A program made the translations under genes and the position numbers. Positions 10,619-56,479 of a stretch of DNA of 64,000 bases are shown one piece after another. The notes beneath the pieces were generated by a model. The model searched no databases. It was not told the DNA's origin and saw only the letters and a program-made list of their open reading frames with translations. The DNA comes from Candidatus Enterovibrio escicola (GTDB lineage: Bacteria; Pseudomonadota; Gammaproteobacteria; Enterobacterales; Vibrionaceae), in the NCBI RefSeq assembly GCF_002464935.1, contig NZ_NBYY01000009.1:372001-436000 (forward strand), read 5' to 3'. How positions within the stretch are numbered: position 1 is the first letter of the stretch; each line of letters opens with the position of its first letter.

Positions 10619-11044
10619 AACTTAATCTCAGTTGCTCATAAAAAATAAACTTAATACCAAAGTAGCGACCTGATCGTTTAAAAAACCATTACCCGCATAA
10701 CCACTTTGGTCATGGATAATAAGGTGGCATTATCTCAGTCAAAGTGACGACGGCTAACGTGGATGATAGAAAGCCTGTATCAGAAATGGTTGACGAGCTT
10801 TGGGGGTTTATACGGAGATAAAGGTTATATCTCTGGTCCATTGGAGCGGGAACTTGCAGACAAGGGAGTTACACTGATAACGGGTATAAAAAACATCTCG
10901 CAAATCGAGCATTCTCGGCACCGTAGTTGTATCAGCTTTATGGTTAACCTGCTGGCAGGGCTTAGCGCGTATTCATTTCAACCAAAGAAGCCGAGCTTCA
11001 AGAGGATTAGGTTTGATAAGCAAGCGCTTATGCAGATCTGAGGT
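10619..11044 (+). pseudogene. IS982-family element, internally deleted
   Basis: The left end (aacttaatctcagttgctcat) jumps at about 10700 directly to the middle of the transposase ([19 protein letters not shown]...[26 protein letters not shown]). It then jumps again to [21 protein letters not shown] and the right end cagatctgaggt at 11044. It resembles a naturally shortened, MITE-like derivative. TAATTA follows the right end. Confidence 0.85.
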
Positions 11045-11213: not shown

Positions 11214-11249
11214 TTCCCCCTTGGGATTGAGATAACCCATCCCCATCTA
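11214..11249 (+). promoter_or_regulatory. Sigma-32 (heat-shock) promoter of groESL
   Basis: The -35-like TTCCCCCTTGGG at 11214-11225 and -10-like CCCCATCTA at 11241-11249 match the E. coli groE sigma-32 promoter closely (family consensus CTTGAA and CCCCATnT). It lies about 135 bases upstream of the groS ATG, so the transcript carries a leader holding the duplicated hairpin unit described next. Confidence 0.85.
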
Positions 11250-11250
11250 C

Positions 11251-11339
11251 AAGTGTACTTTGGGATCTGCGAGTCGAGTACTGCAGGTATCTTTTAAAAA
11301 GTGTGCTTTGGGATCTGCGAGTACCGCAGGTACCTTTTT
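11251..11339 (+). promoter_or_regulatory. Tandemly duplicated hairpin unit in the groESL leader
   Basis: Two ~43-base direct repeats (11251-11295 and 11299-11339) share TTTGGGATCTGCGAGT, a tacYgcaggtaYc hairpin and a T-rich tail. In copy 2, GTACC-GCA-GGTAC (11321-11333) is followed by CTTTTT, like a small terminator. CTGCG-AGTAC-CGCAG (11315-11329) is an alternative stem that excludes it. Copy 1 keeps both options using G-U pairs. This is seen directly; a regulatory role as attenuator or thermosensor is inferred. Confidence 0.55.
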
Positions 11340-11382
11340 GTTCCTTAAATATGGATCACTACATTTAATTAGGAGAAGGCCG

Positions 11383-11673
11383 ATGAACATTCGTCCACTA
11401 CATGATCGAGTAATCGTTGAACGCCAAGAAGTTGAATCAAAATCGGCTGGTGGCATTGTTCTGACCGGTTCTGCCGCTGAAAAATCTACCCGTGGTGTTG
11501 TACTGGCGGTAGGAAAAGGTCGCGTTCTAGATAATGGTAACATATTACCTCTAGATGTTAAAATTGGCGACACTGTGATTTTCTCAGAAGGCTATGGAAT
11601 GAAGACCGAAAAAATTGACGGTAAAGAAGTCCTGATCCTGTCTGAAAACGACGTCATGGCAATCGTTGAGTAA
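11383..11673 (+). CDS. groS: Co-chaperonin GroES
   Basis: 96 codons from the ATG at 11383, behind an AGGAG ribosome-binding site; the frame is open upstream to 11260, but that is leader sequence. GroES caps the GroEL ring and triggers release of folded protein in the cytoplasm. [16 protein letters not shown], the mobile loop [12 protein letters not shown] near 20-31, and the C-terminal [15 protein letters not shown] are typical. groL follows after 42 bases, forming the groESL operon under the sigma-32 promoter at 11214. Intact. Confidence 0.97.
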
Positions 11674-13353
<1,680 letters not shown>

Positions 13354-18521: not shown

Positions 18522-18630
18522 TGCTTGGTGACCATAACATTATATAACCACCTGATCCCATACTAAACTCAGTAGTGATATGTAACAGCCCCTATTGTAG
18601 GATCGGGGTTCCCCGTGCTTTAAATTAAAA
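18522..18630 (+). pseudogene. rrf: Degenerate 5S rRNA gene
   Basis: The stretch aligns with enterobacterial/vibrio 5S: GCTTGGTGACCATAACATTA for GCCTGGCGACCATAGCGTTG, CCACCTGATCCCAT for CCACCTGATTCCAT, AACTCAGTAGTGA for AACTCAGAAGTGA, and GGGGTTCCCC. Many C-to-T and G-to-A changes disrupt the helices, and the 3' strand of helix I is gone. It sits upstream of a new rrn promoter, as the last gene of a preceding rRNA operon would in tandem operons. No 23S remnant is seen before it. Confidence 0.8.
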
Positions 18631-18745
18631 AAGCGCAGTAAGTTTAACGAACCTCTCTATTACTTTTACACTGACTTAAAAGTTAACCGTGACATAAGAA
18701 GGATTTTTTACTTTATCTTCTAAGGAAATAAGGCGGAATTTTTTC

Positions 18746-18773
18746 TTGACTGAATATCAGGATGGCGTAAAAT
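18746..18773 (+). promoter_or_regulatory. rRNA operon promoter (P1-like) and leader
   Basis: TTGACT (18746-18751), 16-base spacer, TAAAAT (18768-18773): a near-consensus sigma-70 promoter. Downstream lies a boxA-like antitermination element GTTCTTTAACA at 18825-18835 and a leader segment (tgtgtgaactcg, cagtgaactgagtgac) as in Vibrio rrn leaders. These are better preserved than the 16S gene they precede, probably because the promoter still drives the tRNA genes at 20448-20742. Confidence 0.75.
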
Positions 18774-18954
18774 ATGTGGCTTCAGTTTTCTGAAGTGCCA
18801 TCGGTTAGCATATTGAAAGTCAACGTTCTTTAACAATTCAATTTATACAAATTTTGTGTGAACTCGTACATGGTATATAAAATCATCATCAGTGAACTGA
18901 GTGACTAAACGAATAACTCCGTTTTGCGGAATGGCCGTTATTATCTTGGTCAAT

Positions 18955-20367
18955 TTGCTTCCTATTTTCGGACAGAAAAGAAACGTACGTTTTTTGCTGA
19001 GGAGCTTTGGACGGTGTGAGAACCCGGTGTGATGTCAGGACACAACAGTTGTTGTTAGTTAGTGGCTTAAATAATTTCATATCAAGGGGGCCTCCCTAAC
19101 TGGTTTGAGATGATGATTAGGGGATATTAGAACTTAGAGTCAGCCCAAACTCCCGTGGGAAAAAGTAGTGAGAAACATTGAATAATAGGTGCAAGCCGGT
19201 ACCTCCGTAACTTCACTTTAATTACAAAAGAAACATCGGTTGACTCCCCTATCAGGGGTCTTGGCAGGTTAGGTATTCAATAAGTTAAACATTTCGTCAG
19301 TAGGATTGGTAACTAAGTCGTCGAATCCTTTAAATATCACGGATCCTGAAAGAATTTATAATCCATGGAACATCAACTTCCTAAACGGAAATCGGATTAC
19401 TAAACACATAGCCGTCGTGTAACACAGATGGTGAAAGCATGATTACTGAGAACAAAACCCTTCAGACTCTTTGTTAAGACAAAGTTGAAAGTTTTAACCT
19501 TAATCTAGATAAGATAAAGTTGTGTAGAGAGAGGTAAATTTTTAGGTGTAATGGTGAAATACGTGGTAGAGTGTGTTGCAATCAAAAGGAATATGAAAGG
19601 AGTGAAGGTGGATCCACTAGACAAAAATGATGCTTACATACGGAAATACGAGACGTGTTCATCTACGCCACAAACGAATTTTACGTAGAAATTGTAAGAA
19701 TGAGACCTAAATATCCTCGCTATCGATTCAAGTTGATTGCTTGACAGGGACAGTCAGAAAATTCAAATGAATGATTGAGATTCATGACAAGAGGTGAAGC
19801 ACATGGTTAAGTTTTCTGCCTTGCGAAGACCTCTTCTACTCTTAATACCCTCAGAAATGGAAAGAAATTATCTCTGGGAAATTCTCAAACAAGTACTATA
19901 TAGTTATCTTCAACTAGTTTTGTGCAATGTTAGGTTAAGTTCTGCATTGAGCACACCACGTATCCTTAACTTCAAGTATATAGTATATTAAAGAGGGGAA
20001 CTCTTAAGAAAACTGCGGATAATAGATTACAGGGAGAAGACAATGACGTCCAATTATCAGAGTTTTTCTGAGTGGATCTGTATACATGCTACAATGGCAT
20101 ATACAGAAGGCAGATCAGTGGAATGGAATCTCAAAAGTAGGTGATGGTCTGGATTATAGTTTGCAGCTAAAATCCTTGAAGTCGTAATTACTAGTAATGG
20201 TGAGTAAAAATGCTACGGTGAATACGTTTCTCATACGATAGGAGTAGTCTTGTAGCAAAAGGAAATATCTTTATCTTCATGGGAAGTTATTTATCTTGGT
20301 ATCTGTCATGAGTGGAGTGAGTTATTAGGTAACCCTATGTTCAACTTGAACAGGATTGATTCCTTAT
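18955..20367 (+). pseudogene. rrs: Degenerate 16S rRNA gene, interrupted by a MITE
   Basis: Collinear landmarks of 16S survive with heavy substitution and small indels: CTAACTGGTTTGAGATGATGAT (19092); CAAACTCCCGTGGGAAAAAG for the 338-region; acatcggttgactcc (19228); GGTGTAATGGTGAAATACGT (19545) for GGTGTAGCGGTGAAATGCGT; GGAATATGAAAGGAGTGAAG; ATGCTACAATGGCATATACA (20087); CTACGGTGAATACGTT (20211); and the 3' end aacaggattgattccttatt. The anti-Shine-Dalgarno core CCTCC is lost (GATTGATTCC). MITE copy B sits inside at 19272-19410 near the 530 loop. Not a working 16S. Confidence 0.88.
19272..19410 (+). mobile_element. MITE copy B, inside the 16S pseudogene
   Basis: Ends GGTATTCAATAAGTT and GATTACTAAACACATA, with the shared interior (tttcgtcagta, cctgaaagaa, aatccatgga, cctaaacggaaat). 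It is the most diverged of the four copies. 16S sequence resumes on both sides, so this is a true insertion. Confidence 0.75.
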
Positions 20368-20447
20368 TATTAAGGTAAATTTAACACGGATTGTATATAT
20401 TGGAAAATAAAGATTAGTTGAAGCTTACAAAGCATAACCAATAAAGT

Positions 20448-20523
20448 GTCCCATTCGTCTAGAGGCCTAGGACACCGCCCTTTCACGGCGGTAACAGGGG
20501 TTCGACTCCCCTATGGGACGCCA
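20448..20523 (+). tRNA. tRNA-Glu (TTC)
   Basis: 76 bases with an encoded CCA. Acceptor stem GTCCCAT/ATGGGAC, anticodon stem CCGCC/GGCGG with loop CTTTCAC giving anticodon TTC, and an intact T arm GGTTCGACTCC. It is the first of three spacer tRNAs downstream of the ruined 16S gene. No damaging change visible. Confidence 0.97.
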
Positions 20524-20524
20524 C

Positions 20525-20600
20525 GGGTCGTTAGCTCAGTTGGTAGAGCAGTTGACTTTTAATCAATTGGTCGCAGGTTCGAATCCTGCACGACCCACCA
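20525..20600 (+). tRNA. tRNA-Lys (TTT)
   Basis: 76 bases with CCA, acceptor GGGTCGT/ACGACCC, anticodon loop CTTTTAA with anticodon TTT, T arm GGTTCGAATCC. It lies one base after tRNA-Glu. Intact cloverleaf. Confidence 0.97.
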
Positions 20601-20666
20601 TTTAACTGCAAGAAAGAGCGCGATTTGTTTTTTAATCTATATCAGTAATAAAGTAAAACGGCATGT

Positions 20667-20742
20667 GGGCGATTAGCTCAGTTGGTAGAGCACCTCCCTT
20701 ACAAGGAGGGGGTCGCTGGTTCGAGTCCAGTATCGCCCACCA
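20667..20742 (+). tRNA. tRNA-Val (TAC)
   Basis: 76 bases with CCA, acceptor GGGCGAT/ATCGCCC, anticodon stem CTCCC/GGGAG with anticodon TAC, T arm GGTTCGAGTCC. The order Glu-Lys-Val between 16S and 23S is a known Vibrio rrn spacer arrangement. Here no 23S follows. Confidence 0.97.
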
Positions 20743-44518: not shown

Positions 44519-44905
44519 TTACTCTGTTACTCCGCCTTCAGCTTGTATAAAATTTTCACTATCTTCGCGCCGAGGTACGCGCTCTTCTTTAGCCTTCATC
44601 ATCACAGATGGGTCAGTAATAATGTCTTTGGTACGCATAATTATATTTCGAATCACAGCATCATTAAAATGAAACGCGGTCTCTAACTCATCAATAACAG
44701 CTTTATCCGCTTCAACATTCATCAAAACATAGTGTGCTTTATGCAGCTTGTTGATCGGGTATGCCAGCTGACGACGCCCCCAGTCTTCTAGACGGTGGAT
44801 TTGACCACCTGACTCTTTGATAGAACTTGTGTACCGCTCGATCATACCGACAACTTGCTCACTCTGATCAGGGTGCACCATGAATACGATTTCGTAATGA
44901 CGCAT
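44519..44905 (-). CDS. rpsF: 30S ribosomal protein S6
   Basis: 128 codons: [29 protein letters not shown] ... [51 protein letters not shown] precedes the ATG. First gene of the rpsF-(priB)-rpsR-rplI operon; S6 pairs with S18. The C-terminal acidic tail is of normal type. Intact. Confidence 0.96.
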
Positions 44906-45039
44906 TATTTGCTCCTTACGGACTATTCAGCTTCCAGTGTTGGCCAGTCGTCCAGAGGAAGCAAGGAACGAAAATAAAAGACTGGGAATTTGGAGACAGA
45001 ATGTTACAGAGTTCCACAACCAATAGCAATCACTATTAA

Positions 45040-56432: not shown

Positions 56433-56479
56433 CTAATGGCTAATGGCTAATGGCTAATGGCTAATGGCTAATGGCTAAT
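56433..56479 (+). repeat. Heptanucleotide tandem repeat (CTAATGG)6.7
   Basis: Six perfect CTAATGG units plus CTAAT. A seven-base period would shift frame if inside a gene, but no gene is recognised here. The surrounding 56019-56932 interval holds no intact gene; 56160-56400 may be decayed coding sequence of unknown origin. Confidence 0.9.

Follow-up and report, generated by a model that had tools for sequence, protein, structure and literature searches.

In this genome, the heat-shock groESL mRNA has a 5′ leader with a short stem-loop that is present in two tandem copies and that most likely serves as a structural boundary, a reading that we hold with moderate confidence. Comparison with relatives shows a homologous hairpin with covarying arms common to the genus, and it shows that the hairpin was duplicated in tandem in the lineage of this genome. 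The conserved groESL leader stem-loop is the ordinary part of the arrangement and the private duplication is the unusual part. All positions given below refer to the window, i.e., the whole stretch of 64,000 nucleotides that was analysed.

The operon lies on the forward strand. A sigma-32-type heat-shock promoter (11220-11248) is composed of CTTGGGA at 11220 and CCCCATCT at 11241, separated by a 14-nt spacer, and this block is conserved, since query positions 4-66 to 4-84 are matched in most genomes of the genus. The transcription start of the groESL leader is the one inferred from this promoter. The Shine-Dalgarno region, AGGAGAAGG (11371-11379, forward strand), precedes groES (11383-11673, forward strand), which begins with the ATG at 11383 and matches Pfam Cpn10 (E 2.2e-30). 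It is followed on the same strand by an ORF of 545 aa (11716-13353) that we take to be groEL by recognition of its sequence. The surroundings contain several other features. A transposase remnant (10763-11041; DDE_Tnp_1_3, E 1.4e-9) lies between dsbD and the groES promoter. An apparent decayed rRNA operon occupies 18524-20739, with a 16S remnant that scores only 80.5 bits over model positions 925-1374 and a 5S of 39.3 bits (gathering score 38); three tRNA genes follow it with scores of 58-79 bits, which looks like retention of the tRNAs alongside decay of the rRNA genes. Further away, the window contains an RpsF leader on the reverse strand (44903-44985; Rfam RF02893, 56.4 bits) and a perfect 7-nt tandem array of CTAATGG in 6.7 copies (56433-56479).

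The tandem duplication between the heat-shock promoter and groES, which the initial annotation had recorded, is real. Copy 1 spans 11251-11298 and copy 2 spans 11299-11342, both on the forward strand; the unit of about 43 bases given originally has to be replaced by lengths of 48 and 44 nt, copy 2 being 4 nt shorter. A repeat search identifies a 24-nt block common to both copies, with 96% identity and a start-to-start spacing of 48 nt. The copies differ by A/G at 11257/11305, by T/C at 11282/11325 and at 11290/11333, and by a 4-nt indel, so that the two C/T substitutions described at the outset are present but are not the only differences. With up to three mismatches allowed, the 24-nt block, which represents the 5′ half of the unit, occurs only twice in the 2,645,619-base genome, both times here; for copy 2, its distinctive 3′ half has a single match in the 2.65 Mb. 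The pair is also the sole direct repeat with a spacing of 25-100 and at least 23 of 24 matches in 444 kb, made up of the window and 19 stretches of the same contig, once low-complexity hits are filtered out, and is thus not a chance occurrence. The possibility that the unit is a mobile repeat found at unrelated loci is ruled out by the genome-wide search: no dispersed copies were found in the whole 2.65 Mb, and both copies are confined to the groES leader.

Each copy is predicted to form one longer hairpin, GGGATCTGC/GCAGGTAyC, in which 8 of 9 positions are paired and one is a G.A mismatch. Hairpin 1 extends over 11262-11291 (forward strand), with arms at 11262-11270 and 11283-11291, and hairpin 2 over 11310-11334 (forward strand), with arms at 11310-11318 and 11326-11334 and an energy of -10.8 kcal/mol on its own. 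It had been proposed that each copy alternates between CTGCG/CGCAG and an overlapping GTACC/GGTAC pairing. Both 5-bp pairings can indeed be written and the two C/T changes keep both, but the CTGCG/CGCAG stem is merely the inner part of the nine-position stem. As for GTACC/GGTAC, its mean predicted pair probability is 0.00 in both copies at 4, 10, 15, 20, 25, 30, 37, 42 and 50 °C; this second state is never populated in the predicted folds, and the two-state hairpin is rejected in the form proposed. In the minimum-energy folds, the outer three pairs (GGG) move over by one position and a bulged A takes the place of the mismatch; this minor shift between two predicted registers does not amount to the proposed switch. 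The predicted pairings that do compete are larger, and they involve the two copies and the Shine-Dalgarno region. The predicted folding energies of the copies are modest: z scores against shuffles are -0.18 for copy 1, -1.78 for copy 2 and -1.82 for both together, so that copy 1 alone does no better than shuffles and copy 2 "only modestly" better. A known RNA family is also rejected, as no Rfam 15 match at or above the gathering score was found in the leader of the window (two lie far below, at E 1.3 and 3.5), nor was any such match found at ten related loci when their groES leaders were searched. CIRCE, the HrcA operator of groESL, is the inverted repeat TTAGCACTC-N9-GAGTGCTAA; with up to three mismatches allowed it has 0 matches in the window, which rules out this operator there.

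Related bacteria carry the hairpin in their groES leaders as well. Among the 18 genomes of the genus that were searched, 17 have groES (G014 does not), and the hairpin is found in 16 of these 17, this genome included; it is single in 15 and doubled only here. The divergent leader of G002, a metagenome-assembled genome, is not alignable and was left out of the counts. In all 16 genomes, the hairpin opens with GGAA or GGGA and lies directly 5′ of a GGATCA(C/T)TACATT block. Altogether 17 hairpins, two of them from this genome, yield 14 distinct ones for the analysis of covariation. With ungapped arms, 107 of 126 cells are paired, against a shuffled mean of 97.6, a value reached by 3 of 5000 column shuffles and by 21 of 5000 whole-arm permutations. 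In a MAFFT alignment, 87.9% of cells are paired, compared with 25.8-54.4% when the arms are slid; the slides allow for relatedness, whereas the covariation shuffles ignore it. The same alignment gives 11 double-change cells versus 5.6 in shuffles (0/500) and a covariation score of 0.255 versus 0.168 (1/500), and one stem position is occupied by G-C in 8 rows and by A-U in 6. Other measures do not exceed the shuffles: pairs with a double change number 3 versus 2.6 (286/500, MAFFT), and further pair types number 9 versus 8.1 (174/500, MAFFT; 912/5000 with ungapped arms). Because the 5′ arm of G004 is misplaced in this alignment and G015 and G017 are shifted, the best pairing of these three is not used there; of the 9 ungapped pairs, only 5 are kept in G015 and 4 in G017. 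Conserved pairing is therefore present in related genomes, and the RNA switch suggested initially survives in part: a structured element with compensatory changes is supported by the relatives, and the specific mechanism is not.

The position of the hairpin also follows a pattern. In all 16 genomes, the stem ends 33-37 nt ahead of AGGAG (36 nt for copy 2 here), and this kept spacing to the Shine-Dalgarno sequence points to a role near ribosome binding, although common descent of the conserved block in between could be enough to account for it. From the inferred start to the stem, the distance is 12-13 nt in six single-copy genomes of the Enterovibrio type and 57-58 nt in nine of the Grimontia type; here it is 13 nt for copy 1 and 61 nt for copy 2. 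The location of the hairpin 57-58 nt from the inferred start, behind another one, in 9 of the 15 single-copy genomes speaks against a purely 5′-end role. Together with six coding bases, the leader of this genome measures 140 nt, leaders of the Enterovibrio type reach 90-99 nt and those of the Grimontia type 134-137 nt; the extra length of the Grimontia type holds another predicted hairpin. The latter is seen between the promoter and the conserved hairpin in, for example, L034 (G001), L037 (G007) and L039 (G016). Through the duplication, this genome thus has a two-hairpin leader of Grimontia-like length.

Structure in this interval extends beyond the genus. A total of 86 leaders were submitted to the folding test; 5 proved too short, and the 81 that could be folded include 47 from Vibrionaceae, 45 of them distinct. 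Other genera of the family are represented by 19 genomes, of which G020 alone entered the test under its own handle, some of the others being the same species as named loci. The 45 distinct Vibrionaceae leaders have a mean z of -1.11, with 37 below 0, 23 below -1 and 7 below -2. Controls of the same length from the same 45 give -0.26 for groES coding sequence and -0.44 for upstream sequence, with 8 and 9 below -1, respectively (Mann-Whitney p 8e-5 for leaders versus coding and 1e-3 for leaders versus upstream). Excess structure in the leader interval is thus statistically common in the family. It counts against the structural reading that whole leaders of the genus range from -2.56 to +1.57. 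Twelve Shewanella leaders have a mean z of -2.02 and twelve of a mostly Colwelliaceae set -0.86. Several Shewanella leaders (L102, L121, L122, L124, L132) contain a pair of predicted hairpins, and a GCCAAC..GTTGGGC stem recurs in the second one. The five leaders that were too short for the test all come from outside the Vibrionaceae, so that groESL can do without such a hairpin.

Stem-loops that stabilise mRNAs from the 5′ end are known, such as those of ompA and papA (cited in PMC3997798). By analogy, and given its position, the groESL stem-loop most likely acts as a structural boundary: a folded element upstream of the A+U-rich spacer and the Shine-Dalgarno sequence would keep the entry site free of upstream pairing and hinder decay from the 5′ side. 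The duplication would have lengthened the leader to two hairpins, and the copies are predicted to pair with each other in the cold, which would close the beginning of the transcript. In this genome, such pairing would take up 11251-11256, with predicted unpaired fractions of 0.01-0.04 at 4-20 °C. The likeness to the ompA/papA type lies in a 5′ leader stem-loop placed upstream of the ribosome-binding site, with conserved pairing in the present case. Unlike that type, the stem of the single-copy relatives starts 12-13 or 57-58 nt after the inferred start, and the unit is doubled in this genome. In the literature searched, which includes few subscription papers, no description of such a hairpin in Vibrio or Enterovibrio groESL leaders was found.

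The duplication is private to this genome among the leaders scanned. A direct repeat of at least 19 nt with up to two mismatches is found in none of the other 110 leaders scanned over up to 170 nt each, the set of 111 including some species twice. A groES-groEL tree joins this genome weakly with G004 (83/92), on long branches; since G004 has a single hairpin, the duplication most simply arose after the split from G004. The two genomes are small, 2.65 Mb in 39 contigs here and 2.1 Mb for G004, compared with 4.0-5.7 Mb in 14 of the 17 genus mates and 3.6-3.7 Mb in two. Each carries two adjacent luciferase-family genes, and one such gene is found in each of the two larger mates searched, G005 and G013. 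Genome sizes of 2.6 Mb for Ca. Enterovibrio escacola and 2.1 Mb for Ca. E. luxaltus, both anglerfish symbionts, are given in PMC6020299, and the sizes of this genome and of G004 fit these values. The bacterium is probably a deep-sea anglerfish light-organ symbiont.

Other explanations have been considered for the doubled element. The leader could be an RNA thermometer or translational switch, in which the Shine-Dalgarno sequence is paired with the T-run in the cold, in a fourU-like manner, and the structure rearranges when warm. In fourU-type and groES RNA thermometers, a U-run pairs with AGGA of the Shine-Dalgarno sequence (PMC4166951), and a thermometer upstream of groES in the Salmonella groESL operon is cited in the same source (original dated 2013). 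Structured groESL leaders are therefore not new, and the initial statement that no such element was described for groESL needs correction. Some of the predictions are in line with this reading. The T-run after hairpin 2 (11335-11339, forward strand), together with CC at 11333-11334, can pair with the Shine-Dalgarno region, and the resulting 7-bp helix between CCUUUUU and the GGAGAAGG stretch has a predicted probability that drops from 0.91 to 0.23 between 4 and 37 °C. Over the same range, a predicted repeat-to-repeat helix (within 11251-11308, forward strand) that joins AAGUGUACUU (11251-11260) with AAGUGUGCUU (11299-11308) through 10 bp, three of them G-U, falls from a mean probability of 0.91 at 4-10 °C and 0.87 at 20 °C to 0.44 at 37 °C. 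Predicted Shine-Dalgarno access also rises with heat in G013 (0.00 to 0.12) and G001 (0.11 to 0.38). In this genome, however, predicted access is 0.20 at 4 °C and 0.14 at 42 °C, with no rise on heating, because a second helix, 11290-11297 with 11369-11376 in the Shine-Dalgarno region, replaces the T-run helix as its probability grows from 0.00 to 0.35 between 4 and 42 °C. Moreover, 17% of shuffles are as closed as this leader, which is within chance, and the corresponding figure varies from 7% to 96% across the 17 genus leaders folded, so that conserved occlusion of the Shine-Dalgarno sequence is rejected as a shared mechanism and the thermosensor named in the initial annotation is not borne out. 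The present leader resembles the Salmonella groES thermometer, as cited, in being a structured 5′ leader of the same operon; it differs from that mode of control in that the conserved hairpin ends 36 nt before the Shine-Dalgarno sequence and predicted access does not rise with heat. A thermometer is thus unlikely. It is equally improbable that an ordinary hairpin became a new temperature-responsive RNA through being duplicated, an RNA in which the paired copies would seal the 5′ end and the T-run would mask the ribosome-binding site in the cold, the copy junction taking over that site when warmer. If this were true, the chaperonin operon of a cold deep-sea symbiont would have a regulatory fold that exists only through the doubled hairpin, and the duplication would have rebuilt the two-hairpin layout that Grimontia-type relatives have by other sequence.

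The T-run could also act in transcription, hairpin 2 and the T-run forming an intrinsic terminator at which a share of the heat-shock transcripts would stop, some 90 nt from their start. The sequence behind hairpin 2 is TTTTTGTT, 7 of the next 8 bases being T, and a terminator-like match lies at 11313-11331; the usual layout of intrinsic terminators and attenuators, a U-run immediately after a hairpin with G-C pairs, is present in copy 2 only. The T-rich tract initially described after each hairpin holds for copy 2, with its run of 5, and not for copy 1, which continues with TTTTAAAA. Attenuators differ from the present case in that the T-run here is not conserved, a run of at least 5 following only 3 of 17 hairpins (copy 2 of this genome, G004 and G013), and in that the proposed alternative fold is not populated: with a probability of 0.00 for the alternative stem, no supported antiterminator was found. 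The two overlapping terminator-pattern matches, against 0.5 (sd 0.8) in shuffles, are weak. A conserved attenuator is rejected on these grounds, and the attenuator proposed at the outset is unlikely. By virtue of the points against them, attenuation and the thermometer are each less likely than the main rival of the structural stem-loop, a neutral by-product. Here, a tandem duplication that arose by chance, in a symbiont genome that is small and decaying, would have left a second copy without function, even if the ancestral single hairpin may have one. This explanation is a tenable one, to which we give less weight than to a structural role. It fits the size of the genome, 2.65 Mb against the 4.0-5.7 Mb of most genus mates, the decayed rRNA genes and transposase remnant in the window, the 974 predicted pseudogenes reported for the probable organism (PMC6020299), and a copy 1 that is by itself no more stable than shuffles. 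It fits less well with the finding that the 444 kb examined contain no second tandem duplication of this sort, or with the paired stem that both copies keep despite three site differences and an indel, two of the changes lying in or beside the stem and preserving its pairing.

If the reading as a structural stem-loop is right, Vibrionaceae groESL leaders would carry a structural element whose sequence turns over while its fold stays, and one probably host-restricted lineage would have doubled this element. The single- and double-copy leaders would then form a natural pair in which the effect of a leader hairpin on chaperonin output could be tested, in the setting of a shrinking symbiont genome.
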